From Psychroserpens algicola (GTDB lineage Bacteria > Bacteroidota > Bacteroidia > Flavobacteriales > Flavobacteriaceae): a stretch of DNA of 64,000 nucleotides. How positions within the stretch are numbered: position 1 is the first letter of the stretch; each line of letters starts with the position of its first letter. The translations under genes and the position numbers were made by a program. Positions 3,390 through 24,345 of this stretch are shown here, in pieces. The notes below the pieces were generated by a model, which was not told the DNA's origin, did not search any database, and saw nothing but the letters and a program-made list of their open reading frames with translations. Location of the stretch: NCBI RefSeq assembly GCF_014526325.1, contig NZ_JACNMJ010000001.1, positions 62,001 through 126,000 of the forward strand. The letters are read 5' to 3'.

Positions 3390-3390
3390 A

Positions 3391-6336: not shown

Positions 6337-6478
6337 AAATTATTACAATTGTTTTAGAAATTTTAAATCGTTTTTTTACTTGTAATTAATTGGGTACAAT
6401 GATACGACAATTTGCCAAGGCTTAAAAGGTTAAAGCCATTCTTTCTCTAGTTTGAACCAGTTAACACACCGCTTATAA

Positions 6479-7582
6479 TTAGACAGCCAGATGTTTTGAA
6501 ATCACTTCTAAAACACGCTGTGTTGCTTTACCATCCCATAGCTGAGGAATTTGACCTTGCTTATACTGTCCTGAAATTATCTGTTGAACACGATCTAAGA
6601 TTTTATCCTGATCAAAATTCAATAAGGTATTAGACCCGATGTCAATAGTGCTAGGTCTTTCGGTATTTGGGCGAAGCGTTAAACAAGGAATTTGCTTATA
6701 GGTCGTTTCCTCCTGAATGCCGCCACTATCGGTTAATACCATAGCACTATTATGAATTAAATTCTGAAAACTAAAATAATCCATTGGTGCAGCAATAGTT
6801 AAATGATCTACAGCTTTAAAAGCATCTTCTAAACCGTGAGACTTTATATTTTTAAGCGTTCTGGGATGCATCGGAAACAGGACACGTTTCTCTGAAGGCA
6901 AACTTTGAATAAGTGCCAAAAGCTGATCCAAGCCTTTTTTGTTATCAACAGTCGCAGGCCTGTGAATGGTCATTAAAATGTAGTCACCTTTATTTAAATT
7001 GTAGGTCGATAACAGTTCCTGATTTTCAATATCATTTTCAAAAGCACATAAGGTATCGATCATCGTATTTCCTACAAAATGAATCTGATCTTTAGATTTG
7101 CCTTCATTGATAAGGTTATCAATCCCGCTTTGTTCGGTCACAAAATAAAAATCGGTAATCTCATCTACTAAAATCCGGTTAATTTCTTCAGGCATGGAGC
7201 GATCAAAACTGCGTAGTCCGCTTTCCAGATGCCCTAATTTCACGCCCAGTTTGTAAGTTGTCAATGCAGCTGCTAATGTAGAGTTGACATCACCAGGCAC
7301 CAACACCATATCGGGTTGGAAAGTGTTTATAATATTTTCGAGTTTGATCATGATCTCACCTACTTGCGAATTGGCTGATGCAGGTTTTATATTGAGAAAA
7401 AAATCAGGCCAAATATCTAACTGATGAAAAAAGACATCTGCCATTGAAGCATCAAAATGCTGACCAGTATGCACAATTTTAATATCGAATTGATTCGGAA
7501 ATTGCTTAGCAGCAATCGTCTTAAATTGAGTGATTTTAATATAATTTGGTCTTGTACCAACAACAATTAATAGTTTCTTCAT
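6479..7582 (-). CDS. wecB: UDP-N-acetylglucosamine 2-epimerase, non-hydrolysing
   Basis: This 367-aa protein is a WecB/MnaA-type epimerase, interconverting UDP-GlcNAc and UDP-ManNAc for surface polysaccharide. The diagnostic N-terminus VVGTRPNYIK, the TGQHFD loop, VPGDVNSTLAAAL, the active-site block GHLESGLRSFDRSMPEEINR, MTIHRP and TDSGGIQEE are all present, and the length is normal. It stands 142 bases upstream of legB in the same orientation and has its own TATCTTTG promoter box, so it may lead the whole sugar operon. Its product is not required for legionaminate by the GDP route, so it may instead feed a ManNAc-containing polysaccharide. Confidence 0.92.
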   Translation of the reverse strand: MKKLLIVVGTRPNYIKITQFKTIAAKQFPNQFDIKIVHTGQHFDASMADVFFHQLDIWPDFFLNIKPASANSQVGEIMIKLENIINTFQPDMVLVPGDVNSTLAAALTTYKLGVKLGHLESGLRSFDRSMPEEINRILVDEITDFYFVTEQSGIDNLINEGKSKDQIHFVGNTMIDTLCAFENDIENQELLSTYNLNKGDYILMTIHRPATVDNKKGLDQLLALIQSLPSEKRVLFPMHPRTLKNIKSHGLEDAFKAVDHLTIAAPMDYFSFQNLIHNSAMVLTDSGGIQEETTYKQIPCLTLRPNTERPSTIDIGSNTLLNFDQDKILDRVQQIISGQYKQGQIPQLWDGKATQRVLEVISKHLAV

Positions 7583-7933: not shown

Positions 7934-7956
7934 TTAAAATGACAAATTTAAACGCT

Positions 7957-10900
7957 ATGAAACATTGCTACTTAACAACATTAACTTTACTTGTTTTTGC
8001 CTTTGGCTTCAGCCAATCTACAATCGTTACTGTTGACAGACCAAATATCATTGGACCTACAGCTACAGGAAATTCACCTGAAATAGCTTCAACAGGACTC
8101 GTTAGAGGCTCTGGAGTGTCACTGGCTAGTTCAGGAGCTAATTTCACATCAAACCAATGGAATGGAACTTCTCAAGCAGAAGCTGTAACTAACAACGACT
8201 ATATTGAATGGTCGGTTAGTGCTAGTGCAGATAATAGTATTGAAATTACTGAATTTGATATTCGTAATAGAAGAAATGCTAACGGCCCAACTAATTGGCA
8301 AGTATTTTACAGTCTGGATAACTTTACTACTCCAGGAATTGCGGCCATTCCTGTACAAACGTCGACTGCTACAGCTTCTAACTTCAATTTTAACGGCTTA
8401 AGCATTATTTCAGGTACTGCTGGAACTGTAACCTTCAGGTTATACGCATGGAATTCGGTTACCAATAATGGCTGGTTTAGAATTGCAGCCAGAAATGCCT
8501 GGTCAGATTTTGGAATCGCCAGTCCAGGTTTACGTATCATTGGAACCATAACAACAACGACATTAAACAGCACTGAATCAAATATTATTGCTACGGCTTT
8601 TGATCCAACAGACAATATTGATTATACATCTTATAATGCGACCTCTGGTTTAACAACGTCTAATGCGATTAAAATAGGTGAATTTACAATTCAGGATGGT
8701 GGTAATGATTTAACCGATACCGATGTAGTTTCAACAATTTTAACCGGATTAAGTTTCGACATTACTAATAATGAAAATATTGCTGCATTAGCTCTATTTG
8801 ATGGTTCGACTAATATTTCTGAAGTCACTTCAATTTCAAGCACAGTAGATTTTAGTGGAATTATAGGTCTTTCTGCTCCAGACGAAAGTTCAAAGACTTT
8901 TGATGTTTACGCAACATTCAATTCTGTAGTTACTGATAATGATCAAATCCAACTTACAATCAGTTCAGCATTAGCCGATGCTGTACTTGGTTCAACGTTC
9001 AACGATTTTGATGGTGGTGGTGCTCAAACACCAATTGCAGGAGACGACAACCGTATAGAAGTTACGGCGACCGCATTCGAGTTTGAACAACAACCAACCG
9101 ATACCTACCAATTTGAAATCATGACACCTTTCCCAATTGTTATTGCTGTTGATGGAAATGGTAATCAAGATTTAGATTACAATGGTACTATTTCTGTAGT
9201 CGCTGCTGGTTCTTTAGAGCCTTCTCTTATAAATTACACGATGACTAATGGTAGTGCAACATTTGATTCCATTGTATTTACTGAAAAAGAAACTGTGACG
9301 ACCTTATTAGCATTTGGAGGTGGCTTATCACCTGCAGTAAGTGATCCTTTTGATGTTAATGGCCCTTTAATTTGCATTGCTGTTCAAGATTTTGATGCTT
9401 CAACACCAGAATGGAACTACTCTTCAAACGTTGCTACATTTGATAACGGTTGGGGAACCGATGGTTATTATGGTCTCATTGACATTTCAAGTGCTTCTCC
9501 TTTAGATAACTCTTCTTTTTCTAATACTATATTTGGTGAAAATGACCTTAACGACGAAGGCGATAATGGCACAACGGGGTTTGCGACCTTATCATTTGAC
9601 CCAATAGACATTAGCAGTTTTGAGAATGTTAAATTATCATTTGACTGGGATGTTCATGGTTATGTCAATAACAGCGACGATGCACAATACAGACTTGTGT
9701 ATGATGGTGTTAACCAACCTGTCGTTTTTCTGTTAGACGGAAATGGAGCAATAGATACTGATGAAGGAACAGTTTCGATAGATATTCCTGATGCTGTTTC
9801 AACTATAGCTTTACAAATTAGAGTAAGAAATAACGGTATAAACGGTTACTCAGGTTTTGATAACTTTAAATTAGTAAGTGTTTTTGACGGACTTCTTTAT
9901 GTTGATAATGGCTGGTCACCTAACCCACCTTCAGACACAACAGGAACCGATAATGCCTATGTATTAGATGGCACTTACAATGTCGCAACAAATATCGAGC
10001 TTAACAATTTATATGTAAATATTGATGCTGCAACATCAATTAGTGCCGGACAATCGATAACCACTAACTCAGGACTAGTTAACAATGGTACTTTTGAGTT
10101 AAACTCAGTTTCAACTTCTTATTCTAGTTTAATTGTTAATGGTGCAGTGGATGGCGATGTCATTTACAAAAGACATGTTAATACAACATCTGATCCTGGT
10201 GAAAGTGGTGAAAACGATTTAATATCTGCTCCAGTTTATGGTCAGACCTTTGGAGATTTTGCTGCTGCAAATTCCAATATCGTAGAAAACCCAAGTGATG
10301 TATCAGTTAAGCTATTTGGACCTTTTAATAAATTCACAGGACTTTACCAGTCTTATGATCTTGATGTCCCAGCCGATGCCAATGCTATTTTAGATGTAGC
10401 TAATGGTTATAGAGCGGCTTCAACAAATTCTGATACATTTACTTTTGAAGGATTGGTTGCAAATACTGTAATATCAAAACCTATAGTTGTTTCTGGTCCA
10501 AATTCTCCTGAATGGAATCTTATCGGAAACCCTTATCCATCTTATTTAAAACTATCTGACTTTTTAGCTAGTAATAATTCTGAGTTTGACCCTCCTAGTG
10601 CTGGTATTTACGGTTATGACGGAGATGCTTCTGATGGATGGCAAATATGGAATTTAGCCTATTCGGATGCAAACCCTAATGCTAAAATCACACCTGGCCA
10701 AGGCTTTTTAGTAGCGTCTAAAGCAGGAGGCGCAACCATAACTTTTACGCCTACCATGCGTACTATTGGTACAACTGATGATTTTATTGCTGGAAGATCG
10801 GGCAGCCAAACTTTAGCACATTTAAAACTTCAAATGCGAACTACCGATGCATCATACAATACTGACATTTATTTTAATGATAATGCGTCGCTAGGAATGG

Positions 10901-11499
10901 ACATTGGTTATGATTCATCCCTTTTTAGTAATTATACACCATCATTTTCACTGTATTCTCATTTAGTAAATGATAATACTGGATTAAATCTAGCTGTTCA
11001 ATCCGTGAATTATGATGCTATAAATGATGTCGTCATTCCATTAGGAGTTCATGCAAATCAAGGTGAACAAATAACAATAAGCATTTTTGAAACGAATATT
11101 CAAAGTGATATAGACGTTTACTTAGAAGACACTTTAGCAAATACGTTTACTTTATTAAATGCTTCAGATTATGTATTTACATCTAATACTAGCTTATCTG
11201 GAACAGGGCGTTTCTTCTTAAGGTTTTCTGGAGATGCTTTATCAACTCCTGAAACTAACTTTGATACCATTCAAATTTATACGACAAAAACACCTAAAGT
11301 TCTTCATATAAATGGTGTATTACAAAATGACACAAAAACTACAATCTTTGATATTCAAGGGCGCTTAATTATGAGCGAAACTTTAAATCAAAATAATAGC
11401 GATCATCAAATTGATATTTCGAACATAAAATCTGGTGTATATATTGTAAGACTGGATAATGGTTTACAACAAAAATCTCAGAAGGTAATTATTAGATAA
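7957..11499 (+). CDS. Large T9SS-secreted surface protein (type A sorting domain), paralogue 1
   Basis: About 1180 aa. The chosen ATG gives a compact Sec signal peptide (MKHCYLTTLTLLVFAFGFSQ); the ATG six codons upstream (7939) would add polar residues, and the next paralogue starts at the equivalent MKH. After a beta-rich N-terminal domain comes a domain shared with paralogue 2 (around SNAIKIGEFTIQD and VTDNDQIQLTISSA), then a choice-of-anchor-like beta-sandwich (about 480-650). From about residue 720 runs the C-terminal module common to all three proteins (DLISAPV, EWNLIGNPYPSYL, PGQGFLVAS, IPLGVHANQGEQ). The last 80 residues are a T9SS type A sorting domain (FDIQGRLI, SGVYIVRLDNG, QKVIIR). 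The protein is probably exported to the surface; its function is unknown, with adhesion plausible. Confidence 0.85.
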   Translation: MKHCYLTTLTLLVFAFGFSQSTIVTVDRPNIIGPTATGNSPEIASTGLVRGSGVSLASSGANFTSNQWNGTSQAEAVTNNDYIEWSVSASADNSIEITEFDIRNRRNANGPTNWQVFYSLDNFTTPGIAAIPVQTSTATASNFNFNGLSIISGTAGTVTFRLYAWNSVTNNGWFRIAARNAWSDFGIASPGLRIIGTITTTTLNSTESNIIATAFDPTDNIDYTSYNATSGLTTSNAIKIGEFTIQDGGNDLTDTDVVSTILTGLSFDITNNENIAALALFDGSTNISEVTSISSTVDFSGIIGLSAPDESSKTFDVYATFNSVVTDNDQIQLTISSALADAVLGSTFNDFDGGGAQTPIAGDDNRIEVTATAFEFEQQPTDTYQFEIMTPFPIVIAVDGNGNQDLDYNGTISVVAAGSLEPSLINYTMTNGSATFDSIVFTEKETVTTLLAFGGGLSPAVSDPFDVNGPLICIAVQDFDASTPEWNYSSNVATFDNGWGTDGYYGLIDISSASPLDNSSFSNTIFGENDLNDEGDNGTTGFATLSFDPIDISSFENVKLSFDWDVHGYVNNSDDAQYRLVYDGVNQPVVFLLDGNGAIDTDEGTVSIDIPDAVSTIALQIRVRNNGINGYSGFDNFKLVSVFDGLLYVDNGWSPNPPSDTTGTDNAYVLDGTYNVATNIELNNLYVNIDAATSISAGQSITTNSGLVNNGTFELNSVSTSYSSLIVNGAVDGDVIYKRHVNTTSDPGESGENDLISAPVYGQTFGDFAAANSNIVENPSDVSVKLFGPFNKFTGLYQSYDLDVPADANAILDVANGYRAASTNSDTFTFEGLVANTVISKPIVVSGPNSPEWNLIGNPYPSYLKLSDFLASNNSEFDPPSAGIYGYDGDASDGWQIWNLAYSDANPNAKITPGQGFLVASKAGGATITFTPTMRTIGTTDDFIAGRSGSQTLAHLKLQMRTTDASYNTDIYFNDNASLGMDIGYDSSLFSNYTPSFSLYSHLVNDNTGLNLAVQSVNYDAINDVVIPLGVHANQGEQITISIFETNIQSDIDVYLEDTLANTFTLLNASDYVFTSNTSLSGTGRFFLRFSGDALSTPETNFDTIQIYTTKTPKVLHINGVLQNDTKTTIFDIQGRLIMSETLNQNNSDHQIDISNIKSGVYIVRLDNGLQQKSQKVIIR

Positions 11500-11704: not shown

Positions 11705-14700
11705 ATGAAACATTTTTACACTTTTTTACTACTTCTTTTATTAGGGAATTTAGGATTTGGACAGACGACAATCTGGGTTGAAGATTTTGAAACAGATGGT
11801 GACTCTGGCATTCGTTATAGTTCATCTAACACTTTCAACGACGGAACTAATGACCATTTTGGAAGAACAGACGGCTCTGATATTAGTGGAACTTATAATT
11901 TACCAAATAACTCGTTTTTTTGGGCTGGTGAAGATTTAGATGATAATGGTGGAGATGGATCTCCTACAAAAACTATTACTTTCAACTCAATTAATATCTC
12001 AGGATATACGGATATTACATTTAAAGGATTATTTGCATCTGGAAATGGTGGTTCTGGTTGGGATGATGGTGACATTCTTTATTTAGAATATAGCCTTGAT
12101 GGTGGCCCATATCAGAAATTTATACAGTTTGCTTCTCCGAGTGGCGGTTCTAATGTAGGATTGAATCATGATCCTAATTTAGATGGTACTGGCGAAGGAG
12201 CAGCAATTACAACAACTTTCACTGAATACTCTTCTTTATTAGGAGTTACAGGAAATTCTATTCAAATAAGATTATTTGTGAGTGCAAACTCAGCAAGTGA
12301 AGAATTTGGATTTGACAACTTGATTCTAGAAGGAATTCTTGCATCATCTGGCCCTAACAACCCAGATGCTTTTTCAGCAGCTGTAGTATCCTCATCGCAA
12401 ATCAATTTAAACTACGACGATAATGCAGATGGTGATGATGTGGTGATTGTATTTAATACCGATAACAATTTTGATACACCATCAGGAACACCAACTGTAG
12501 GTAATGATTTTGGTGATGATGAAATCTTATTTATAGGCAATACCTCAGGAACGTTTAACCATACCGGATTAACCGAAAACACCACCTATTACTATAGAGC
12601 CTATTCTTATGATGGCACTGATTATTCTGTAGGATTAAGTGCTGATGCTACAACGCCTTGTAATGCTATTGTCGTTACCAATTTAAGTCCGTTTCAAGAA
12701 GGATTTGAAGGCGGAACGGTTCCTCCGAGCTGTTGGGCATCTTTTAGAGGTACGAATGGTTTGGGAACTGCTCAAGATTGGGAACTTAGTACTACTCCAA
12801 ATTCTGGAATCAATGCTGCTTTTGTGAGATACGAGAATGTAAGTGGCGGAAATGCAGAAGACTGGTTAGTAACACCAGCATTAGATCTAAGCACATTGAC
12901 AAATACAGAATTATCTTTTTTCACTAGAGATGCTGGTTTTGGTGATGATAGTGATTATTCTATTAGAGTTTCTACAACATCACAAACAGATCAAGGGACA
13001 TTTTCAACAGTGAATTCATATACCGCTTTTGGAAATACTTACATTAATGAAATAGTTGACCTATCTAGTTTTGATGGTCAAACCATTTACATCGCCTTTG
13101 TAATGTCCCAAGATAATGGAGATAGTTGGTACCTTGATGATATTGAAGTTAAAGAAGGAACTTCAAAACTATCTGATATCGTTGAAGCAAATTATGACGA
13201 ACCTAATAATATTGATTATACCTTATTCCCTAACGCAACACCTTTAACAACTAGTAATGCTATTAAAATTGGAGAGTTTACTATTAGAGATGAAGGCGGA
13301 GCACCAGATACTGATGGATTAGGAACAACACTTACAGATATTACGTTTACTGTTGATGGATTCGAAAATATAGATGCGATTGCTTTATTTGACGGACCAG
13401 CAAATGTAGGAGAAGTGACTAATGTTACTGCAAGCACAACATTCAATAGTTTAAATTCTGGAAGTGGAATTACAGCTACAACTGGCTCAAGTACTACATT
13501 TTGGGTATATGCTACATTTAAAACAACAGTTACTGATAATGATCAAATTCAATTAACAATAAGTTCAGCTACGGCAGATTCAAGTGGTTCAACCTTTGCG
13601 ACATCAGATGCTGGTGGCGCAACAAATGATCTTACTGAAACAGATGATAATAGAATTGAAGTTACAGCTAGTCAATTAGTATTTTCTCAACAACCACCTT
13701 CTTCAGTTGCAATCAATGCAGCTATGGCTGACGTCATTGTTGAAGCTCAGGATATCAATAATAATGTTGACAGTGATTTTATTTCTAACATAGATATTAC
13801 CTCAACAGGTGCATTAAGTGCAAGTCCAGTTTCTGAAACGGCTATAGCAGGTATTGCTACGTTTAGCACGATAACACATACAGCTGCTGATACAAATTTG
13901 GAATTAACAGCGACTGACGGTACTTTTCTGGTAACTAGTACTACATTTGATGTTTCTGTTTTACCATCAGTAATTGCAATTCAAGATTTTGAGACGAGCC
14001 CACAAACACCTGTATTTAATTACTCAAATACAAATGGAGGGTTTGCCACAGGATCTGGCCCTGTACCTAATGATGATAATTTCGTATCTGGCACCAGAGG
14101 ATGGGAAGCAAATAATGAGACTTCAACACTTACTTTTGGACCTATTGATGTTTCGGGCTACACTGATATTGAATTAGATTTTAGACTAGCTGCTTTTGCC
14201 ACATCTACAAATGGACTTGATGTTGGAGATAACGTTCTTGTAGAAGTTAGTTTAGATAATGGAGCTACATTTTCTGATGAAATTGAGATTAATGGTAATG
14301 ATAATGCCAAGTGGTCTTTTGATACTGGTGAGGCTTCTGCAACTGTTGTTTATGATGGTGATAATAGTCAAGCTAGTTTTGCACCTGCTGGAGGAGGAAA
14401 TAGAACTACTGATGGCTATTCATTTATTTCAGTTACTGATATTACAAATTCAAGTCAATTAGTCATACGAATAACAATGGCTAATAATAGCAGCAATGAA
14501 TTTTGGGTTATAGACGATGTAATACTAAGTGGTATTTTACTTCAAACTAATGACAGTGACTCAGAAATTTATGCAGCTACTCCACAAATAGGCAATTCAA
14601 CAATAATTGCTGCTAACTCAACTACAATTGCAACCGATGCTGAAGTATTTGGTTTCGTTATCGATGACCAAGGTTCTGGTGATGGTTTAGCAACCAACGT

Positions 14701-17700
14701 AACAAAAATGCGTTTTGTACCTGGCTCAGCCAACACGGCTTTATGGTCAACAGCTATTGAAGGTATTACGCTTTACGATGAAAATTTAGTGGATTATACG
14801 CCAGCAGTTACTATTTCTGACACTGAAATTATACTAGATTTTGGTACGCCTATTTCTATTACGGACGGTGGTTCATTAGAGTTTGTATTAGGGTTCTACT
14901 TAAAAACTACAGGTATTGTCGATAATAGTATTGTTCAATTTCAAGTCGATGATTCTGCCAATGGATTTACAGCTGATACTTCAGGTTCTGGTTTTATTGA
15001 CCCATTGACTTCAGGAACCTTCACTGGTCCAGAAACGACAATTAATGTTGTGGCTAGTGATCTCGTATTTGGTCAGCAACCTACAAATACTGAAATCAAT
15101 ATAGCTATTGATCCTGCAGTAATTGTTGATGCTGTTGATACTAATGGCAATCTAGATTTAGACTATACGGACCCTATTGACTTAACTATAACTACGCTTA
15201 CGTTTGCTGGGAGCGCAACAACATCTGTAAACGCCATCAACGGTAGTTCTACGTTTGATAATTTATTAATAAATTCAACAGGAGTTGGCAACTTAACTGC
15301 TAGTTCAACTGGGTTGAATGACAGCTCGTTAAGTGATCCATTTGGTGTGGCTCCAAACCGCTCTAACATTTGGTGTGAAACTTTTACGGATAACTCTTTA
15401 TACAATGTGACTCTTGGAGGTGAAGGAAAAGGTCCTGATACAATTGAAACCGATTATTTCCATATCACTGACGGTTCAGATATTGACATAGCTTATAATG
15501 GAAATAATGGAAACTTTTTCGCTGCTCAGGATATTGATGATGGATCATGGACTGGAAGTGCTAACCCAAGTCAGTTAACATGGACTGGCATTAACATTGA
15601 AGGCTATAGTGGCATACGCTTTTCAGGAAAATTTGCTTCTGCTGCTCTAAACTCAATCGATCCTGCTGATGAAGTTTTAGTTGAATACCGAACAAATGGA
15701 ACTGATCCATGGGTAAGCTTTTTAGCTTTTAAAAACAACGGCATAGATAATAATACTTTTTTCCAAGAAGACACAGATTTTGATGACATAGGAGATGGAA
15801 TACAGTTAACTGATACATTTCAAACATTCAATAAATTATTATTGACAACGGCTTCAGATACAACAATTGATTTGAGATTAACTGTAAGAGTGAATTCTGG
15901 AGCAGAGGATGTCGCTTTTGAAGACTTTAAAATAGAAGGTATTGGAGGAACATATCCAGGAAATGCTGCTACAGGTTTTGATGGCCCATTAGGCACTGGG
16001 AGTTTTGAAATTGATGCTAGCTCTGGCTCTACAATAAATTTCATCTATAATAGAGGTGTAGGTGGTACTCTTGGATTGTTTGAAAACCACATCGTAGTAT
16101 ATATAGATAGTAAAGCAGGTGGAATTACTTCAACTACTAACTTAATTGATGCAGGTGACGATGGAAGAAAAGCTATCTCTGGATTTGATGGTAATCTTTT
16201 AAGATCTGTTGTGAATTTTCCTCCAGGTTTTGAACCTGATTATGCTATATCACTTCATAAAGATTTTGCAGGCTTATTTGAAATAATTGAAAATGGGTCT
16301 CACAACTTTATACAAAGTGCAAACTTAAACCCTTTAGGAAGTAATAACAATGCTAATTATACCTTTAATATCGACTTTTCTAGTATTAATGCATTAGCAG
16401 GAGGTGAAAGCTTTAAGTTTTTAGCTACATATATTAATGCTGCTGGAGCATTTAGATCTAATGAATCTATAGGTGATAACACTGCCACAGGCAATCCTGG
16501 TACAAATCCAATTGAATTCACAACCTATTATCAAGCATCTAGCAGAAAGAAAGGTGGATTAGCACCATCTACAGCTAATGGATTATGGACAACAAGTGAA
16601 ACTTGGGTTAATGGTAATGCGCCTTTAGATGGTGATGAAATTATAATCAACAATACGGTTAACCTTAACACAGATTACACCACAAATGACATAGAAATTA
16701 CTGCTACAGGAATTTTCACTGTTAATTCGGCTTCTGATTTTGAAATCACTGGAGGTGTTGTTGGTAGTGGACTATTTAATGTGAATGGTGATTTAATTAT
16801 TTCTGAAGGTGGATTCACAAACATAGTACCAACATACACAACAGGTTCTAGTTTAACTTATAATAATATTCTTGCAACATATAATAGATTTAACGAATGG
16901 CAACCTGGAACAACAGTTGGATTAGGCGTACCAGACAATGTTATTATTGATAACTCTGATTTAGATCTAAGCAATCCTAGTGCAAATATAACTGTTGAAA
17001 ATTTCGCTGTCGGTAATAATGTATCTGTATTCAATGGCGGAAACCTAAATATTGACCCAACAAAGTCATTAACTGTAAACGGTGATTTCGCTAATGTGAT
17101 TTCAACAGTTAATATGAATTCAAATTCGCAGAAATATTCTAGTTTAATAGTTGGTGGAACTTCTATTGGTGAGGTAACATATAAACGTCACGTTAATACA
17201 TTTAATAATACCACTGGAACTACTACTGGTCAAAACGATTTAATATCAGCCCCAGTTACCAATAGTAGTCAAACATTTTTAGCTTTTAGAACAGTAAACA
17301 CTAATATTCCTACAGGAACAATTGGTGGTGTTCCATCATTTTTATTCGGTCCTTTTGATAATGACGCTAACACTTATATTAACTATAATGCATCTAATGA
17401 TAGTGATGTTTTAACTGCTGGAGTTGGATATCGCTCTGCTTCTACTAATACTTCAACATTTACATTTGTTGGAGATGTCGAAACTAATAGTGTTACAGTT
17501 GGTATTGATGTTGGTGCATTAAGCGAATGGAATCTTATTGGTAACCCTTATCCATCTTACATCTCAATGTTAGAGTTTTTAACAGAAAACGATGGTGCTT
17601 TTAACAGTTCATCTTCTGGAATTTATGGATATGATGGTGATGCTACTGACGGATTTGTTGTTCGTAATTTAGGATACTTTGTGTTAAACCCTGACGAGCT

Positions 17701-18523
17701 TATAGCACCAGGACAAGGGTTTTTAGTAGCCTCTGTTAATCCTGCAGCTACAGTTAATTTTACACCAGCTATGAGAATGACTGGTTCTTCTGATGATTTT
17801 ATTATGGGTAGACAAGGCTTTTCTGAAAATGCCTTTATCACTTTAGAAATAAGTAAAGACGATCTAATGTATATGACAGATTTGTATTTCTTAACAGAAA
17901 ATGTATCTCTAGGGCTTGATCCAGGATATGACACTAGTGTATTTGGAAACGTAGCTCCTGATGATTTTGCAATTTTCTCTCATCTTATTGAAAGCAATGA
18001 AGGGATTGACATGGCAATTCAATCATTACCTTCATCTAGTTTGTCTAGTGTAATTGTTCCTTTAGGTGTTAATGTAAATAATGGTGAGCAATTTACTATC
18101 AGTATCAAAGCGTCGAGTTTACCTGAAAGTATTGATGTATATTTAGAAGATACTATAAACAATACACTTACACTACTAAACAATAGTGACTATGTGTATA
18201 CAGCAACTACAGATATTAATGACACAGGGAGATATTTTTTAAGATTTACTGAAAACTCATTATCAACTCAAGAAAACAGTTTTGATAACTTAAACATCTA
18301 CAATTCGAAAACAACTAAAGAAATTGTAGTTAATGGACAATTATTAGAGAACACTATATGTAACATCTATGATATTCAAGGTAGAATTATATTCTCTACT
18401 ACTGATTTAGATTACACCTCTCTAGAAAACAGAATAGATGTTTCAACAGTAAGTACAGGAGTTTATATTATTAAGTTACAAAGTAATAACTTAGAAAGAA
18501 CTCAAAAACTGGTTATTGAGTAA
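11705..18523 (+). CDS. Very large multidomain T9SS-secreted surface protein (type A sorting domain), paralogue 2
   Basis: 2272 aa with a signal peptide (about residues 1-20, ending LGNLGFGQ). In order there are: a choice-of-anchor beta-sandwich (about 25-215), a fibronectin type III-like domain (about 215-315, ending YYYRAYSYDGTDYSVG), a cleaved-adhesin/choice-of-anchor J domain (about 325-490, WLVTPALDLS and WYLDDIEVKEG), the domain shared with paralogue 1 (about 500-660), and further beta-sandwich repeats (about 760-1400). A region around 1420-1600 looks DOMON-like, followed by a W-rich segment resembling a G8-type strand repeat (LWTTSETWVNGNAPLDGDEI). The common C-terminal module begins near residue 1810 and ends in the T9SS sorting domain. 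It is Asp/Asn/Thr-rich, as expected for a calcium-binding surface adhesin, but no enzyme motif is visible. Confidence 0.85.
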   Translation: MKHFYTFLLLLLLGNLGFGQTTIWVEDFETDGDSGIRYSSSNTFNDGTNDHFGRTDGSDISGTYNLPNNSFFWAGEDLDDNGGDGSPTKTITFNSINISGYTDITFKGLFASGNGGSGWDDGDILYLEYSLDGGPYQKFIQFASPSGGSNVGLNHDPNLDGTGEGAAITTTFTEYSSLLGVTGNSIQIRLFVSANSASEEFGFDNLILEGILASSGPNNPDAFSAAVVSSSQINLNYDDNADGDDVVIVFNTDNNFDTPSGTPTVGNDFGDDEILFIGNTSGTFNHTGLTENTTYYYRAYSYDGTDYSVGLSADATTPCNAIVVTNLSPFQEGFEGGTVPPSCWASFRGTNGLGTAQDWELSTTPNSGINAAFVRYENVSGGNAEDWLVTPALDLSTLTNTELSFFTRDAGFGDDSDYSIRVSTTSQTDQGTFSTVNSYTAFGNTYINEIVDLSSFDGQTIYIAFVMSQDNGDSWYLDDIEVKEGTSKLSDIVEANYDEPNNIDYTLFPNATPLTTSNAIKIGEFTIRDEGGAPDTDGLGTTLTDITFTVDGFENIDAIALFDGPANVGEVTNVTASTTFNSLNSGSGITATTGSSTTFWVYATFKTTVTDNDQIQLTISSATADSSGSTFATSDAGGATNDLTETDDNRIEVTASQLVFSQQPPSSVAINAAMADVIVEAQDINNNVDSDFISNIDITSTGALSASPVSETAIAGIATFSTITHTAADTNLELTATDGTFLVTSTTFDVSVLPSVIAIQDFETSPQTPVFNYSNTNGGFATGSGPVPNDDNFVSGTRGWEANNETSTLTFGPIDVSGYTDIELDFRLAAFATSTNGLDVGDNVLVEVSLDNGATFSDEIEINGNDNAKWSFDTGEASATVVYDGDNSQASFAPAGGGNRTTDGYSFISVTDITNSSQLVIRITMANNSSNEFWVIDDVILSGILLQTNDSDSEIYAATPQIGNSTIIAANSTTIATDAEVFGFVIDDQGSGDGLATNVTKMRFVPGSANTALWSTAIEGITLYDENLVDYTPAVTISDTEIILDFGTPISITDGGSLEFVLGFYLKTTGIVDNSIVQFQVDDSANGFTADTSGSGFIDPLTSGTFTGPETTINVVASDLVFGQQPTNTEINIAIDPAVIVDAVDTNGNLDLDYTDPIDLTITTLTFAGSATTSVNAINGSSTFDNLLINSTGVGNLTASSTGLNDSSLSDPFGVAPNRSNIWCETFTDNSLYNVTLGGEGKGPDTIETDYFHITDGSDIDIAYNGNNGNFFAAQDIDDGSWTGSANPSQLTWTGINIEGYSGIRFSGKFASAALNSIDPADEVLVEYRTNGTDPWVSFLAFKNNGIDNNTFFQEDTDFDDIGDGIQLTDTFQTFNKLLLTTASDTTIDLRLTVRVNSGAEDVAFEDFKIEGIGGTYPGNAATGFDGPLGTGSFEIDASSGSTINFIYNRGVGGTLGLFENHIVVYIDSKAGGITSTTNLIDAGDDGRKAISGFDGNLLRSVVNFPPGFEPDYAISLHKDFAGLFEIIENGSHNFIQSANLNPLGSNNNANYTFNIDFSSINALAGGESFKFLATYINAAGAFRSNESIGDNTATGNPGTNPIEFTTYYQASSRKKGGLAPSTANGLWTTSETWVNGNAPLDGDEIIINNTVNLNTDYTTNDIEITATGIFTVNSASDFEITGGVVGSGLFNVNGDLIISEGGFTNIVPTYTTGSSLTYNNILATYNRFNEWQPGTTVGLGVPDNVIIDNSDLDLSNPSANITVENFAVGNNVSVFNGGNLNIDPTKSLTVNGDFANVISTVNMNSNSQKYSSLIVGGTSIGEVTYKRHVNTFNNTTGTTTGQNDLISAPVTNSSQTFLAFRTVNTNIPTGTIGGVPSFLFGPFDNDANTYINYNASNDSDVLTAGVGYRSASTNTSTFTFVGDVETNSVTVGIDVGALSEWNLIGNPYPSYISMLEFLTENDGAFNSSSSGIYGYDGDATDGFVVRNLGYFVLNPDELIAPGQGFLVASVNPAATVNFTPAMRMTGSSDDFIMGRQGFSENAFITLEISKDDLMYMTDLYFLTENVSLGLDPGYDTSVFGNVAPDDFAIFSHLIESNEGIDMAIQSLPSSSLSSVIVPLGVNVNNGEQFTISIKASSLPESIDVYLEDTINNTLTLLNNSDYVYTATTDINDTGRYFLRFTENSLSTQENSFDNLNIYNSKTTKEIVVNGQLLENTICNIYDIQGRIIFSTTDLDYTSLENRIDVSTVSTGVYIIKLQSNNLERTQKLVIE

Positions 18524-18741: not shown

Positions 18742-21075
18742 ATGATGAAAAATTACGCATCCCTTAAAGTTAATTATCTTTTATTTATAACGTTTTTGGT
18801 TTCTTTATTGACCTTTGGACAAAACACACCAAAGACTGTTAGCATGAGTTCTACCGAAAATAACAGTACTGCTTTTTCTGCCGAAGGAACCATTGCAACA
18901 TCTATAACAACATTCTACACACATTGGGATACTAATTATTTATACATAGGCTGGTCTGAAGGACAAACAAATTACTCTTCAGATTTATATTATGTAGCCA
19001 TTGATACCAATCCTAACACAGCATCAGGAACTAGCAATGCTATAGAAGGAGTCGGTTTTGCTACAGGAAACAGCTTACCTGATTATTATGCTGTATTTGA
19101 AAACAATTCATCTTTTTATGGCATACCTGCAAGTAATGGTAATGCAATTGAACTCTATGACGGGACTTCTGGCACATGGAATTTTGTAAGCAGAATTGAT
19201 GGAAATGACAATATCGAATCGAAAATAGATTTTCAAAATTCACCAAATGGCGAAGTACGTATCAGAATAGCTTGGTCTACTATTGGATTTACTCCTGGAA
19301 ACAACAAACCTTTAGGGATTACTTACTGGACCAACAATAGTAATGGAAATTTTATGTGGTCGAGATTTCCAAACTCAAATCCTGCAACGGGATCAACTTC
19401 AAAAACTTTAACTCACCAAATCATCTTTAACTCAACTGGATCTGGTGTGAACCCATCAGCATCTTACTATGAAAATTCATTTTCAGAAAACACCAAATAT
19501 GCATCTAATAATGATGGAAATTGGAATGATATAAACAACTGGATTTATAATGGAATTCCAACAGATGGTGGAGACATCACTGTAAATAATGACTTAACTT
19601 TAGATATCGACGCCTCACTTGATTCAGCTACAATTAACGCTGGTTCTAGTATTACGATTAATTTGGGTACAACATTAGCAACAACTGATGGTTTAACCTT
19701 AGAATCTACATCAAATAGTTATTCTAGCTTACTTCCTAACGGTACAATCTCTGGTCCTGTCACCTATAATCGCTATGTAAACAGTAATGCTGAAACTGGA
19801 GGAAACGACTTAATTAGTGCTCCTGTTACAGGACAAGCTTTTGATCTGTTTATTGACAATAATCCAAATATTTTAGCAGAACCAGACCCTGGAATTCGTG
19901 TCCTATTTGGAGGGTTTAACATCAATGATAATGCTTACGAATTATGGGATGAAACAGACACAACTCCATTAGCCCCTGGAGCTGGTTATAGAAGCGGTAT
20001 TGACCCTGCTGCCTCTAGTAATATTGTACAATTTCAAGGTACAGTTAACACGTCTACAATCACGACATCTATTAGTGAAGGTACAGGTAGTAAATGGAAT
20101 TTAATTGGTAACCCTTACCCATCATACCTCAGCGCTCAAGGTTTTTTAGCTCAAAATTCAAGTTTACTAGACCCTGCAGCTACAGCTATTTACGGTTATA
20201 ATGATGATACCGATGCTTTTGCTGGTGGAAAATATACAATCATCAACAATTTTAGTACTTATAACTTAACTCCTGGACAAGGTTTCTTTGTAGCCTCTAA
20301 TGCTACTGGAGGTACAGCTGAATTTCAACTTTCTATGCGTTCAATTTCTGGAGGTGATGACTTTATACAAGGAAGGGAAACTAATGTTGTTACGAACTTA
20401 AAATTAATGCTTAGCAATACCAGTGATAGTTTTTTAACAGATATTTATTTCTCTGAATTCTCAACGTTAGGCTTAGACCCTGGCTATGACGCCTCACTTT
20501 TTGGTGGAGTTGCTCCTGCGTTTTCTATTTATTCTCATTTGGTTGAAGAAAACTCTGGGGTTCCTTATGGTATACAAGCGGTTGGTGAAACCGATTATAA
20601 TGATGTCACTATACCATTAGGTGTCAATGCTAATCAAGGAGAGCAAATCACATTTACAATAGACTCGTCAACAATACCAAGTTCTGTTGATGTATATCTT
20701 GATGATACTGTTGCAAGTACATCCACCTTATTAAATTCGATGGACTATATTTTAACTCCAAGCACAAATCTCTCTGGTACTGGGCGTTTCTTTTTAAGGT
20801 TTACTGATTCATCATTATCAACTCAAGAAAACGATTTTGAAAACATTCTAATTTATACATCCAGACCAACTAAAACTATAAATGTTCAAGGTGTGTTTAC
20901 TCAAGCCACAACACTTCAACTTTATGATATACAAGGTCGATTGGTAAAAACAAGTAAAATAGATAATACATTAACTGAAAACCGAATTGATATTTCTAAC
21001 GTAAATACAGGTGTATATATAGTAAAACTTGAAAACAGTAATAGAATAGTTACTCAAAAATTAATTATTCAATAG
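18742..21075 (+). CDS. T9SS-secreted surface protein (type A sorting domain), paralogue 3
   Basis: 777 aa with a signal peptide at about residues 1-27 (ending VSLLTFGQ). Residues about 30-235 form a beta-rich domain that resembles DOMON/CBM9-type sandwiches (THWDTNYLYIGWSEG, YYVAIDTNPNT, LGITYWTNNS). A short W-rich strand repeat (NWNDINNWIYNGIPTDGGDI) follows, and from about residue 325 the C-terminal module shared with the two upstream proteins. The final 80 residues are the T9SS sorting domain (LYDIQGRLVKTS, NTGVYIVKLEN, QKLIIQ). Carbohydrate binding is a guess from the N-terminal fold. It is the smallest of the three tandem paralogues and the only one preceded by the long palindrome. Confidence 0.85.
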   Translation: MMKNYASLKVNYLLFITFLVSLLTFGQNTPKTVSMSSTENNSTAFSAEGTIATSITTFYTHWDTNYLYIGWSEGQTNYSSDLYYVAIDTNPNTASGTSNAIEGVGFATGNSLPDYYAVFENNSSFYGIPASNGNAIELYDGTSGTWNFVSRIDGNDNIESKIDFQNSPNGEVRIRIAWSTIGFTPGNNKPLGITYWTNNSNGNFMWSRFPNSNPATGSTSKTLTHQIIFNSTGSGVNPSASYYENSFSENTKYASNNDGNWNDINNWIYNGIPTDGGDITVNNDLTLDIDASLDSATINAGSSITINLGTTLATTDGLTLESTSNSYSSLLPNGTISGPVTYNRYVNSNAETGGNDLISAPVTGQAFDLFIDNNPNILAEPDPGIRVLFGGFNINDNAYELWDETDTTPLAPGAGYRSGIDPAASSNIVQFQGTVNTSTITTSISEGTGSKWNLIGNPYPSYLSAQGFLAQNSSLLDPAATAIYGYNDDTDAFAGGKYTIINNFSTYNLTPGQGFFVASNATGGTAEFQLSMRSISGGDDFIQGRETNVVTNLKLMLSNTSDSFLTDIYFSEFSTLGLDPGYDASLFGGVAPAFSIYSHLVEENSGVPYGIQAVGETDYNDVTIPLGVNANQGEQITFTIDSSTIPSSVDVYLDDTVASTSTLLNSMDYILTPSTNLSGTGRFFLRFTDSSLSTQENDFENILIYTSRPTKTINVQGVFTQATTLQLYDIQGRLVKTSKIDNTLTENRIDISNVNTGVYIVKLENSNRIVTQKLIIQ

Positions 21076-21123: not shown

Positions 21124-21131
21124 TATTTTTG
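21124..21131 (+). promoter_or_regulatory. Promoter of the peptide-kinase-nucleotidyltransferase cassette (TATTTTTG)
   Basis: An exact TAnnTTTG box 19 bases before the ATG of the 53-aa peptide gene. Transcription would start near 21138, giving a leader of about 13 bases. Only an all-AT, weak hairpin separates it from paralogue 3, so some read-through is possible. Confidence 0.6.
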
Positions 21132-21150
21132 ACCCCAATTATATTACGTA

Positions 21151-21312
21151 ATGAACAGAAATAGTCCTCAAAATAAGATTACTCGTAAGGAAGCCATGAA
21201 AAAAATGGGCAGGTACGCTGCACTCACTGCAATGGGTACTTTTCTTATACTTAACCCAAAAAAGGCTCATGCATCTTCTCCACCTGATCCAGGAGGAAAC
21301 CCTTTTGATTAA
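21151..21312 (+). CDS. 53-aa exported peptide, candidate substrate/precursor of the adjacent kinase
   Basis: ATG to TAA encodes 53 residues. The first 20 are polar and basic and include TRKEAMK, which resembles a Tat-type S/T-R-R-x-F-L-K motif with one R replaced by K. A hydrophobic stretch (about residues 22-34, YAALTAMGTFLIL) and an AHA cleavage-like site follow at 39-41. The remaining 12 residues, SSPPDPGGNPFD, would be the mature peptide. It sits 15 bases upstream of the kinase gene and 19 bases downstream of a promoter box, so it begins the cassette. I know of no named family for it. A RiPP-like precursor or a small exported peptide are both possible; the coding call rests on promoter, start, stop and signal-like structure. 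Confidence 0.72.
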   Translation: MNRNSPQNKITRKEAMKKMGRYAALTAMGTFLILNPKKAHASSPPDPGGNPFD

Positions 21313-21327
21313 TTATTAAATTTTACT

Positions 21328-22464
21328 TTGAAAACGGATTTAGCTCCGAAGTACATTAAATCTATTGGAAATGAAACTTCTATTCTATGGTTTCAACATT
21401 CTAACAGATATGTTGTGGTGTCTGAAAGTTTGCTTACACTAATACACTTGTTTTTTAGTGCAGAGGATTCCTTATCTTATATTAAAACATTACAAGATTC
21501 ACTTCATTTGGATGTCACAGAAAGTAAAGCTATCTATGATGACATTTCTAGCTTTATAAAAGAAGCCAACCAATTCAGCACACCTGATGAAGATCTTAAT
21601 CTGCGTTTAGACATTCCTTTACCAAGTTATACAAAGACTTATATTTTTGGAGACAAAACAATCACTATTAATTTTGAATCAGACATTTTAAAAGATTTAA
21701 TTCATCCTCAAATTGCGCATCATGCTGTTGCCAACCAAAATGAAGGTGATACTGTTTTTGATATTTTTAAAACTGATGATGATCTACATTTATACAAAGA
21801 CAAAAATTTAGTTGGATCTTACAAAACTTCAATGTTTCATTTGCTTCAGGGTCGATTTGCTTTAGAACTAACTAACGAGATTCATCACAAATCGATAGAC
21901 AACTGGATTGCCACATTTCACGCTTCAACAATTACCAACGGAAATGAAGCAATTATGATTATAGGAGACTCTGGAAATGGTAAAAGTACCCTTTCAGCTA
22001 TATTAATGGCTAATGCTTTTGACCTACTTGCAGATGACTTCACTCCGCTTCATCAAGACACAAATCTATACCGATATCCAGCAGCTGTTTCAATTAAAAA
22101 AGGTGCCTTTGAAACTTTGAGTCCGATTATAAAACACTTTGATTCTTTTGAAGTCATAACCAATGGTCCCAAAAAGGTTAATCTTAAATATGTTCCGCCA
22201 ATTTCAGATTTCAATCAAAGCAAGCCTTTTGTAAAATGCAACAAAGTGGTGTTTGTAAAATATGATTCTGAAAGCCCTTCTTCATTACAAGAAACATCTT
22301 TGGATAATATTCTAAACACTTTAATTCCTGAATCATGGGTTTCACCGGAGGAAACTCATGCTCTACAATTTATAAACTGGTTAAAAACGTTACAATGTTA
22401 CGAGCTTAATTACTCTGATAACGATTTTGCAATCTCTAAATTTAAAGCACTTTTTAATGAGTAA
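21328..22464 (+). CDS. PqqD/RRE-like domain fused to an HPr-kinase-like kinase
   Basis: 378 aa from a TTG start at 21328, 15 bases after the peptide gene; no in-frame ATG lies nearby. Residues about 14-82 have the strand-strand-helix pattern of PqqD-type peptide-recognition domains (SILWFQHSNRYVVVSESLL, then helices). The C-terminal half is an HprK-type kinase: a His in ATFHAS (198) at the position of the catalytic His, Walker A GDSGNGKST (213-221) and a Walker B-like LLADDF (234-239). HprK-related kinases with PqqD-like partners occur in peptide-modification clusters, including lasso peptide kinases. True HPr kinase is unlikely because the protein lacks the usual HprK N-domain. The RRE call comes from pattern and predicted secondary structure by eye, so it is less certain than the kinase call. 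Confidence 0.72.
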   Translation: MKTDLAPKYIKSIGNETSILWFQHSNRYVVVSESLLTLIHLFFSAEDSLSYIKTLQDSLHLDVTESKAIYDDISSFIKEANQFSTPDEDLNLRLDIPLPSYTKTYIFGDKTITINFESDILKDLIHPQIAHHAVANQNEGDTVFDIFKTDDDLHLYKDKNLVGSYKTSMFHLLQGRFALELTNEIHHKSIDNWIATFHASTITNGNEAIMIIGDSGNGKSTLSAILMANAFDLLADDFTPLHQDTNLYRYPAAVSIKKGAFETLSPIIKHFDSFEVITNGPKKVNLKYVPPISDFNQSKPFVKCNKVVFVKYDSESPSSLQETSLDNILNTLIPESWVSPEETHALQFINWLKTLQCYELNYSDNDFAISKFKALFNE

Positions 22465-22487
22465 ACTTTTGTTTGTTTACTTTTGAA

Positions 22488-23555
22488 ATGTCAAACACCT
22501 TTAGATTGTCTTCAACTAAAACCACATATAAAGATACACTGTCATTAATTGCCGAAATTTTAAGTTTCAGCAACTCAACCACCCAGTTAAGACATAAACT
22601 TGAATCAGAGCCAATCAATTGGGACAAGTTTGTAGAACTCTCCAGTGGCCAATTGGTTTTAACAACTTGCTATTGCAGGCTAAAAGAAAAGCAGTTGTTA
22701 GATCTTATTCCTAATGATTTAGTGTTATATTTAGAAGAACTAACATCAATTAATAGAAACAGGAACTTAACATTAATAAATGAAATTAAAGCTATCACGC
22801 AAGCTTTCGATGTACATAATATAAATTATGTATTACTAAAAGGCGCTGCCATATTAATAGGCCATCAATTAAAGGACTTGGGAGAACGTATGGTTGGAGA
22901 TGTTGACATATTGGTCACTCCCGATCATATTTCAGAAGCATACCAATTGATAAAAGACTTAGGATACAATCAAAGTAAAGGCTTTAATTATGATGTGACA
23001 AATTTCAGACACTTACCCAGACAATTTACAGATGATAAAATGGCTGTTATTGAACTCCATAGTTCGATACTCGATTTAAAATTTAAGCATCTTATTGATG
23101 AAGACTTAATTTTCAATACTAAAATTAAACATCAGGATGGTATAATCCCGAGTGCTTATGCTATGAATATTATTAATATTATGGGGCTTCAGATCAATTC
23201 GAAGGGCTATCAATATAAACATTGGTTTTTACGAAACTTGTATGACAGCTTGGTGTTGAAATTAGATCAGCAAACCGATTTGCTAAATGATTACAAAAAC
23301 AATAAATATTTCATCGACTACTTATCTAAATATCATGCTGTTTTTAAATGTTTGCCTTTAACTGTTTCCAATAGAAAGTTAAATAGACATATACGCTATT
23401 ATGATTTCAAGTTTAGGCAGTTTTGGTTGCACCAAATAATCTATAAAACAAGTTATATTTTTTATAGTATTTATGACAGAATCACCTTGTTTTTAAACAA
23501 CTCCAGTTATAGATCTCACGTATTGAAACGTTATATTTCAACATCAAAGGTGTAA
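22488..23555 (+). CDS. Uncharacterised nucleotidyltransferase family protein (PF14907 type)
   Basis: 355 aa from the ATG at 22488; a TTG at 22473 is in frame but would sit 9 bases after the kinase stop. The central segment NINYVLLKGAAILIGH ... GERMVGDVDILVTPD ... AYQLIKDLGY is the hallmark of the PF14907 nucleotidyltransferase group, with the DxD metal pair in GDVDILV. These proteins recur beside HprK-related kinases and PqqD-like proteins in several phyla, and in lasso peptide loci, but no biochemical role is settled. By context it probably acts with the kinase on the 53-aa peptide. The C-terminal 100 residues are basic and aromatic-rich and match nothing I recognise. Confidence 0.75.
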   Translation: MSNTFRLSSTKTTYKDTLSLIAEILSFSNSTTQLRHKLESEPINWDKFVELSSGQLVLTTCYCRLKEKQLLDLIPNDLVLYLEELTSINRNRNLTLINEIKAITQAFDVHNINYVLLKGAAILIGHQLKDLGERMVGDVDILVTPDHISEAYQLIKDLGYNQSKGFNYDVTNFRHLPRQFTDDKMAVIELHSSILDLKFKHLIDEDLIFNTKIKHQDGIIPSAYAMNIINIMGLQINSKGYQYKHWFLRNLYDSLVLKLDQQTDLLNDYKNNKYFIDYLSKYHAVFKCLPLTVSNRKLNRHIRYYDFKFRQFWLHQIIYKTSYIFYSIYDRITLFLNNSSYRSHVLKRYISTSKV

Positions 23556-23760: not shown

Positions 23761-24345
23761 ATGAAAAAGATAATTTTGCTGGTATTTTGTTTTGTAGCTA
23801 TTGGTTTAGACTGCAATTCACAATCTTTAACAAAAAGTCAAATTAGAGGTGAAGACACTTGGGTTGTGAGTGTAGGTGTTAATGCCATAGGTAGTTTAGG
23901 AACCAGAAACCCTGTAAAAGACTTAGGTGACTTCCAGTTTAAACGCCCTCTTGCTATTGCTGTTCAACACAGATGGTCTAGAATTTTTTCTATTGAGCAA
24001 GATTTCACTATGAATCGCTTTACTGAGAATACTATTATAGATGGTAATCCAGTTCCTGAAGACTATAACTATTACTCAACTAACACGTATCTTAAATATT
24101 ATATTTCTGATGATTTATTCCGAACAGCGACCTGGTTTGATTTATTTATTGGTGGTGGTTTAGGTGTGTTCTCAATAGATGAGTTTAACACCTCTGCAAA
24201 TGCTGTTATTGGTGGTACGTTTTGGATTAACGATAAAATTGGTATCCGTTTACAAGGTGTTGGTAAGTTTGCTTTTAATCACAAAGACAATTTATTTGAC
24301 AATAATCACTTACAATATATGTTACAAGCAGTATTTAGATTATAA
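23761..24345 (+). CDS. Small outer-membrane beta-barrel protein
   Basis: 194 aa with an N-terminal signal peptide (MKKIILLVFCFVAIGLDCNSQ). The rest is a series of amphipathic strands (WVVSVGVNAIGS, LAIAVQHRW, FSIEQDFTMN, YYSTNTYLKYYI, WFDLFIGGGLGVFSI, NAVIGGTFWI, IGIRLQGVGKFAF) ending in an aromatic-containing terminal strand (LQYMLQAVFRL), typical of an eight-stranded OmpA/OmpW-like barrel. No OmpA peptidoglycan-binding domain is attached. Its stop codon abuts that of the convergent metallopeptidase gene. Specific function unknown. Confidence 0.7.
   Translation: MKKIILLVFCFVAIGLDCNSQSLTKSQIRGEDTWVVSVGVNAIGSLGTRNPVKDLGDFQFKRPLAIAVQHRWSRIFSIEQDFTMNRFTENTIIDGNPVPEDYNYYSTNTYLKYYISDDLFRTATWFDLFIGGGLGVFSIDEFNTSANAVIGGTFWINDKIGIRLQGVGKFAFNHKDNLFDNNHLQYMLQAVFRL

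Follow-up and report, generated by a model that had tools for sequence, protein, structure and literature searches.

Linear polyphosphorylated peptides (LPPs) of the Bacillota are made by a system with an RRE (recognition element of ribosomally synthesized and post-translationally modified peptides, RiPPs), an HprK-like kinase and a nucleoside triphosphate (NTP) transferase, and without a cyclase (Popov et al. 2026, Nat Commun, PMC13381572). The kinase, LppK, phosphorylates the linear peptide repeatedly at Ser3, the leader carries the motif YxxPxVLxHQxIxFETxxS, and some atypical clusters of that study are located within capsule loci; the final product of its cluster could not be identified (PMC13381572). 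Among enzymes that tailor lasso peptides, BsfK phosphorylates Ser3 of its precursor peptide (PMC10368454), paeninodin-type kinases target the C-terminal Ser of the precursor (PMC8498205), and PsmN, annotated as a nucleotidyltransferase, has been associated with the one or two hexoses that the phosphoserine of pseudomycoidin carries, although it is doubted whether PsmN itself adds them (PMC9266682).

Here we describe a locus in a 64,000-nucleotide stretch of the Psychroserpens algicola genome (family Flavobacteriaceae; assembly GCF_014526325.1, contig NZ_JACNMJ010000001.1, positions 62,001 to 126,000; hereafter the window) that encodes a short peptide (P), an HprK-like kinase (K) and a PF14907 nucleotidyltransferase (N) behind three genes for type IX secretion system (T9SS) cargo proteins (C1 to C3). 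On balance we slightly favour a reading in which K and N form a single-copy maturation pair for P, and the products act with a subfamily of T9SS-secreted surface proteins, C. This subfamily is a fourth component beyond the peptide, kinase and nucleotidyltransferase, and is the strongest new signal in our analysis. The features of the locus, in window coordinates, are as follows.

7939..11499, + strand: C1, 1186 amino acids, PF18962 (E 3.6e-11), C-module hidden Markov model (HMM) 592.9 bits, Por_Secre_tail
11705..18523, + strand: C2, 2272 amino acids, PF18962 (E 4.2e-8), C-module HMM 519.8 bits, Por_Secre_tail
18742..21075, + strand: C3, immediately upstream of P, 777 amino acids, TIGR04183 (E 3.6e-11)
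19519..20848, + strand: C module minus its sorting tail, 443 amino acids, used as phylogenetic-profile query
21151..21312, + strand: P, open reading frame (ORF) with ATG start, 53 amino acids, putative precursor peptide with an export-type leader
21151..21273, + strand: P leader (residues 1-41), ending with the AxA site A39-H40-A41 (from the alignment; putative cleavage site)
21277..21279, + strand: codon of Ser43, a near-invariant Ser and predicted phosphorylation site
21328..22464, + strand: K, HprK-like kinase, 378 amino acids, TTG start
21328..21588, + strand: K N-terminal domain, predicted beta-beta-beta-alpha-alpha-alpha, RRE/PqqD-like topology
22488..23555, + strand: N, PF14907 nucleotidyltransferase, ATG at 22488, longest ORF open from TTG 22473

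As initially annotated, P, K and N are co-directional, with 15 bases between P and K and 23 between K and N. The cassette resembles the LPP system in combining an HprK-like kinase and an NTP transferase without a macrolactam cyclase, in its conserved leader and variable C terminus, in a Ser near the leader cleavage site (Ser3, phosphorylated, in LPPs; Ser at +2, predicted, here) and in its setting, which is a capsule locus for some atypical clusters there, with polysaccharide genes near several loci here. It differs in that the RRE is separate in the LPP system whereas an RRE-like domain is predicted to be part of K, with no discrete RRE protein gene among C3, P, K, N and the next gene downstream, c4. 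The LPP leader motif is absent from the P alignment, in which the leader reads ITRKEAxKKMG..., and the T9SS cargo subfamily is the putative partner here. The LPP cluster includes an archaeal-type signal peptidase (SpI) and an MsbA-like exporter; here, no exporter or signal peptidase was found in a scan of 19 of the window's 43 ORFs of at least 150 amino acids, including all but one within 1-32738, or among the recurrent neighbour clusters identified (c9 and c15 excepted).

The likeness to HPr-rel-A systems (TIGR04352, TIGR04353), which together with the LPPs come closest among known systems, lies in a distant membership of the same kinase family, an adjacent N homologue and an upstream leader-bearing protein. 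K, however, scores under the TIGR04352 cut-off, the locus is without a separate TIGR04353 PqqD-family chaperone, and the substrate would be a short peptide rather than the 129-162-residue protein of sphingomonads. With lasso tailoring enzymes (paeninodin, PsmK/PsmN, BsfK) the cassette shares the residues and spacing of the BsfK motif and an annotated nucleotidyltransferase. Lasso peptides, however, are threaded rings, the phosphate in paeninodin-type systems is on the C-terminal Ser, and no macrolactam cyclase, B2 protease or other lasso enzyme was found in a scan of P, K, N and their five flanking genes in each direction, as the initial annotation had also stated. C ends in the same sorting domain as type A T9SS cargo (TIGR04183/PF18962) but adds a module of about 440 residues without a Pfam or NCBIfam family, and a subfamily of this module co-occurs with K and P.

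Linear phosphopeptides made with a kinase and nucleotidyltransferase only are already known (LPPs, 2026), and to call this locus an undescribed minimal system of that kind, as was first proposed, was too strong a claim for the class (PMC13381572). What is new relative to the LPPs is the leader, the N-terminal domain that K itself carries, the apparent lack of a nearby peptidase or exporter and, above all, the T9SS partner family. In the literature searched, most of it outside subscription journals, we found no description of a P-K-N-C system in the Flavobacteriaceae.

Co-occurrence of peptide, kinase and T9SS cargo

In a sample of 299 genomes of the family, K is found in 29 (threshold E<=1e-8) and P, searched with a profile, in 32; 28 genomes have both, 1 has K only, 4 have P only and 266 have neither. 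At the level of the phylum P was detected in 5 of 395 genomes, all of the same family and including that of P. algicola, where K, N and P are present in single copy in 3.8 Mb (genome searches). A P-like ORF lies close upstream of the kinase in 24 of the 29 K neighbourhoods (in P-N-K order in one case), and N is present in 25. The peptide, HprK-like kinase and PF14907 protein thus recur together far beyond the genome of origin, as had been claimed, and the small ORF is conserved in orthologous loci, which had been set beforehand as the test of that claim. In three of the five K loci without an adjacent P the kinase is at a contig edge (L044, L057, L058) and in two it is not (L036, L046). P is encoded elsewhere in the genome in all of these but L044, which belongs to G048, the only K-positive genome without P, and K is there cut by the contig start.

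In neighbourhoods of up to 16 kb the gene immediately upstream of P is nearly always a large T9SS cargo gene from a single cluster. The three cargo genes that the initial annotation noted directly ahead of the cassette do each end in a T9SS sorting domain and adjoin it; they had been taken as neighbours, yet the C subfamily co-occurs with the cassette and precedes P. The P. algicola genome encodes six full-length C proteins, three of them from these tandem genes (the C1 module match in the genome search is C8:71979-73493). Of 300 C protein pairs, 298 align beyond the sorting tail, over the C-terminal module of about 440 residues plus the tail, and the N-terminal parts are unlike in most pairs that include the window's protein. 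TIGR04183 is over its cut-off in all eight C proteins scanned, and PF18962 in the window's other two; the module itself matches no NCBIfam family in eight C proteins, and no Pfam family in seven. Residues 698-777 of C3 resemble solved T9SS C-terminal domains in a structure search. The C model has a mean predicted local distance difference test score (pLDDT) of 57.3, with ten-residue means of 45-89 over residues 361-690, and gave credible structure matches for the T9SS tail alone.

A wider C superfamily is present in 177 of the 299 genomes at E<=1e-6 with a sensitive profile, by which about five best candidates per genome were scored. We considered and rejected the idea that C is merely a common T9SS module: the score distribution is bimodal, with a high-scoring subfamily that tracks K. 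With a cut-off of 180 bits, set in the score gap after the gap was seen, the subfamily is found in 29/29 K-positive genomes and in 5/270 others (G066, G121, G275, G283, G292). The module without its tail is found in 29/299 genomes at E<=1e-30, overlapping with K in 26, with 3 genomes having K only, 3 the module only and 267 neither. Counted by genus, K occurs in 23, P in 24 and C in 22 of 236. K, P and the C subfamily are jointly absent from G028 and G038, whose genus-mates G255 and G261 have all three. Positions G684, P514 and Y465 (stop-frame numbering) separate the subfamily from the superfamily, and there is no obvious nucleophile among the separating positions (60 versus 22 sequences).

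That the C subfamily tracks K so closely would also be expected if the C proteins themselves, or a glycan that they carry, were what K and N modify, with P as an unmodified, co-transcribed accessory or adaptor. The link between PsmN and hexose addition (PMC9266682) and the sugar-nucleotide and polysaccharide genes near the cassette in the window and in several relatives point the same way. P, however, tracks K as tightly as C does and has a near-invariant Ser at +2 from an AxA-like site. The characterised relatives of K cited above phosphorylate precursor peptides, and sphingomonad HPr-rel-A loci have no C match in the DNA examined yet encode a protein with a twin-arginine translocation (Tat) leader and an invariant Ser shortly past its AxA site. 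We therefore regard C as an improbable target of the two enzymes, and return to P as their substrate.

C and P are also paired physically, independently of K and N. Of 56 evaluable P, 45 have a co-directional C gene no more than 500 nt upstream: 29/36 in the family sample, 11/12 in G383 and G597, and 5/8 among named loci, a set that comes from a genome-contig scan and covers the matches listed. Three further P are at contig ends and lie outside the 56. G383 and G597, which belong to one genus, each have six P and one K; the twelfth P of this set follows another P that is itself behind a C. In G123 and G149 P is far from K, and one P in each is behind a C gene (L090, L091). As a control, eighteen wider-superfamily C loci were taken from genomes that lack K, and none has a P in its flanks (about 1 kb).

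These data bear on the possibility that the neighbourhood is coincidental, a vertically inherited gene order beside the division and cell wall (dcw) cluster with no functional meaning. Gene order is indeed conserved there more widely, since the downstream clusters c5-c9, including FtsZ and FtsA, are kept in 8-10 of the 29 loci. Against this stand the C-P pairs located far from K-N in several genomes, the joint absence of K, P and the C subfamily from two genus-mates of K-positive genomes, and the lack of P in the 18 superfamily loci, which together make coincidence very unlikely.

The peptide and its enzymes

P is a real, conserved gene. In a 22-row alignment R12, A15, A23, T26, A27, G29, L34, P36 and S43 are invariant, and the leader, with the consensus ITRKEAxKKMGKYAALTAxGTFxILNPKKAQA, is conserved while the C-terminal part varies. 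Synonymous and nonsynonymous codon differences between P and its relatives number 10/4, 17/7, 17/6, 11/8 and 18/14 in five ungapped comparisons, when about 22% of random single changes in P are expected to be synonymous; amino-acid change in P is selected against. P of the window is 92% identical to that of G045, and their K are 58% identical. The best Pfam match of P (E 0.12) does not reach a cut-off, and NCBIfam gives none. Ordinary signal peptides are not known to show such conservation, and the leader of P is therefore probably read by a partner.

Of 59 P, 52 could be read with a pattern for the supposed cleavage site, and 51 of these have Ser at +2 after it. Inspection by eye shows the Ser in four of the remaining seven as well; the other three are truncated or degenerate. 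The site is AxA in 40, SxA in 6 and TxA in 1, with another last residue in 5, and is followed by 8-25 residues in 50 of the 52 and by 53 and 55 in the other two. A search of plasmids in protein mode (E limit 0.01) found no P. At one locus, L089, P adjoins what we take to be two FISUMP-like proteins in place of a C gene; five near-alike tandem ORFs of 125-136 amino acids lie a few kb from this P (L089:2062-4003).

A variable C-terminal part behind a conserved leader is also what would be expected if P gave rise to a phosphopeptide that is released and has bioactive or signalling function, an LPP-like RiPP for which C served as surface receptor, capture or immunity partner and not as the target of decoration. 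LPPs share the enzyme set, the conserved leader and the variable C termini (PMC13381572), and the excess of C over P in the P. algicola genome fits a receptor family. We nonetheless think a released peptide unlikely, given that no exporter or signal peptidase was found among the 19 scanned window genes or the identified neighbour clusters, and that 11 of the 12 P in G383 and G597 are right behind a C, which fits a structural pair.

The C-terminal half of K matches HprK_rel_A (TIGR04352) with E 8.5e-17, though its 61.2 bits fall far short of the curated cut-off of 200, and K has no match to TIGR04353. An AlphaFold2 model of K (pLDDT 91.5) has an HprK/PEPCK fold by structure search, and its Foldseek and VIA matches are all to the kinase domain. 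Across 26 K there is no variation at H198, G213, S215, G216, G218, K219, D236 and D237, and H198, G213, G216, G218, K219, S220, D236 and D237 correspond to the BsfK motif with identical spacing (PMC10368454). N matches PF14907 (E 9.9e-28, 97.8 bits, cut-off 31.2), and its residues K127, G128, R143, D147 and D149 (stop-to-stop frame numbering) are each kept in at least 95% of 36 homologues. The motifs of both kinase and nucleotidyltransferase are intact. Kinase relatives act on or adjoin leader-bearing peptides, in line with the initial annotation (PMC13381572 and the sphingomonad loci described below). Among the matches listed, the nearest K come from a Flavobacteriales bacterium, an uncultured Psychroserpens, Gelidibacter and Winogradskyella.

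Residues 1-87 of K are predicted by AlphaFold2 to form strands 9-13, 17-22 and 27-32 and helices 33-44, 48-59 and 63-81. A beta3-alpha3 winged helix is the topology of PqqD/RRE domains, and the K N-terminus is predicted to be RRE/PqqD-like in this respect. A PDB sequence search with the N-terminal profile returned designed TPR proteins and others that are likely to be chance matches, and four pattern matches on viral contigs were unrelated to K. In the one-contig genome G040, K is spread over two reading frames (L047:7221-8367).

A proposed maturation pathway

In the pathway that we propose, the RRE-like domain at the N-terminus of K would bind the conserved P leader, and K would then phosphorylate Ser43, two residues past the AxA-like site, perhaps repeatedly. 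N would attach a sugar or nucleotidyl group to the Ser43 phosphate. P would be exported and its leader cut by signal peptidase at the AxA-like site, releasing into the periplasm a linear phosphopeptide, mostly of 8-25 residues, which would join or decorate the C module of surface-located T9SS cargo. We infer all of the chemical steps, the export route and the physical partnership with C: phosphorylation of Ser43, its elaboration by N, and export are suggested by the gene anatomy and by the precedents of LppK, BsfK and PsmN, and action with C at the surface by the genetic pairing of C and P alone. More tentatively, the modified peptide could serve C-bearing T9SS proteins as their own cofactor or ligand, or decorate them covalently, with one K/N pair supplying many dispersed C-P pairs with a (glyco)phosphopeptide.

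A number of observations weigh against this pathway or the links on which it depends. With regard to leader binding, the initial annotation had placed an RRE in the kinase N-terminus; the predicted topology agrees, but profile comparisons did not establish homology, hhalign giving E 0.036 and a probability of 1.4% for the K N-terminus against 14 PqqD-type ORFs, and only 1 of 32 K family members having a PqqD match (E 0.043). The Ser rule has a lone exception, a Tyr in L097, and the last residue of the supposed site is not Ala in 5 of the 52 P (AxQ in two, AxE, AxT and AxV in one each).

On the side of co-occurrence, kinship among the genomes inflates Fisher p-values such as that for K and P (5.5e-34). 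P is found without a detectable K, even by K profile, in G136, G275, G283 and G295 (82-92% complete), and G275 and G283 keep both P and C without K beside the K-positive genus-mates G055 and G069. The C subfamily occurs without P or K in G066 (80% complete), G292 (84%) and G121 (99%). As for the pairing of C with P, 11 of the 56 evaluable P have no C within 500 nt: four are the second P in their locus (L033, L118, L119, L161), six are L050, L089, L094, L096, L099 and L121, and L100 has a weak, partial P. The P. algicola genome has six C and one P, and because C outnumbers P the pairing is not one to one.

If the more tentative reading is right, in which the peptide is a cofactor, ligand or decoration of C-bearing proteins, the locus would represent a new kind of post-translational system, one that joins RiPP-type chemistry to the display of proteins on the cell surface. 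Because the peptide is tied to a specific and recognisable family of secreted surface proteins in a marine bacterial family, its function becomes testable, and a single K-N knock-out would be expected to alter all C-P pairs of a genome. By the suggested substrate rule, a peptide with an export-type leader would carry a Ser just past an AxA-like signal-peptidase site, and a similar-looking arrangement occurs in alphaproteobacterial HPr-rel-A loci.

Gene neighbourhood and related loci

Two further features flank the cassette.

21124..21131, + strand: TANNTTTG, promoter-like box upstream of P (pattern match only)
23761..24345, + strand: c4, 194 amino acids, possible outer-membrane beta-barrel, weak TIGR04565 match

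The three genes had been placed behind one promoter box in the initial annotation. The TANNTTTG box is present, but because the motif turns up 56 times (0.875 per kb) on the window's + strand it is weak evidence by itself. The TIGR04565 match of c4 has E 0.0038 and 17.2 bits against a cut-off of 60. Cluster c4 is present in 13 of the 29 loci, co-directional and directly after N in 12, and may be a fifth component or just conserved gene order. Beyond c4 follow an opposite-strand M90 peptidase and FtsZ/FtsA/Mur genes.

Directly ahead of the three C genes, on the - strand, lies a nonulosonic-acid-type surface-sugar cluster (228-7582). It encodes NeuB, a DegT aminotransferase, Polysacc_synt_2, two UDP-GlcNAc 2-epimerases, a hexapeptide transferase and a CBS-nucleotidyl transferase. 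In relatives, clusters c10, c12 and c13 (8, 6 and 3 loci) are sugar-nucleotide or polysaccharide genes, c11 is a Mur ligase and c14 is NusG-like, as judged from one scanned member each; the recurrent neighbours also include YqeY. The P. algicola genome encodes TatC.

Outside the family, twelve sphingomonad loci among the matches listed (L126, L127, L129-L133, L136, L138, L141, L144, L148) encode a conserved protein of 129-162 residues upstream of K. It has a Tat-like leader (TRRxAL...PALAQ), conserved Cys residues and, in 11/11 aligned sequences, an invariant Ser five residues past an AxA site. An N homologue is adjacent in these HPr-rel-A loci by N profile, no C match is present in the DNA examined, and in L126 both TIGR04352 and TIGR04353 are over their cut-offs. 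NCBIfam models name the enzymes of HPr-rel-A systems, and the upstream leader protein has no family match (one sphingomonad protein scanned); it is possibly their unnamed substrate. Profile comparison showed no homology between P and the sphingomonad precursors (E 0.24), and the likeness of their leaders is accordingly a resemblance and not a demonstrated kinship.

In a metagenome-assembled genome labelled Mariniphaga, a T9SS-tail ORF, a short NEITRKE-containing ORF, K and N lie together (L122:9204-10977), and the arrangement may extend beyond the Flavobacteriales, unless the contig is misbinned. Leaders similar to the sphingomonad one are encoded upstream of K in L134, L137 and L149. The last of these, from Tropicimonas, has a 784-residue fusion of PF14907, PqqD and an HprK-like kinase (L149:8252-10603), in which the PqqD match (E 2.1e-4, 22.0 bits, cut-off 23.4) precedes the kinase domain and a small Tat-leader ORF lies just upstream of the fusion gene.

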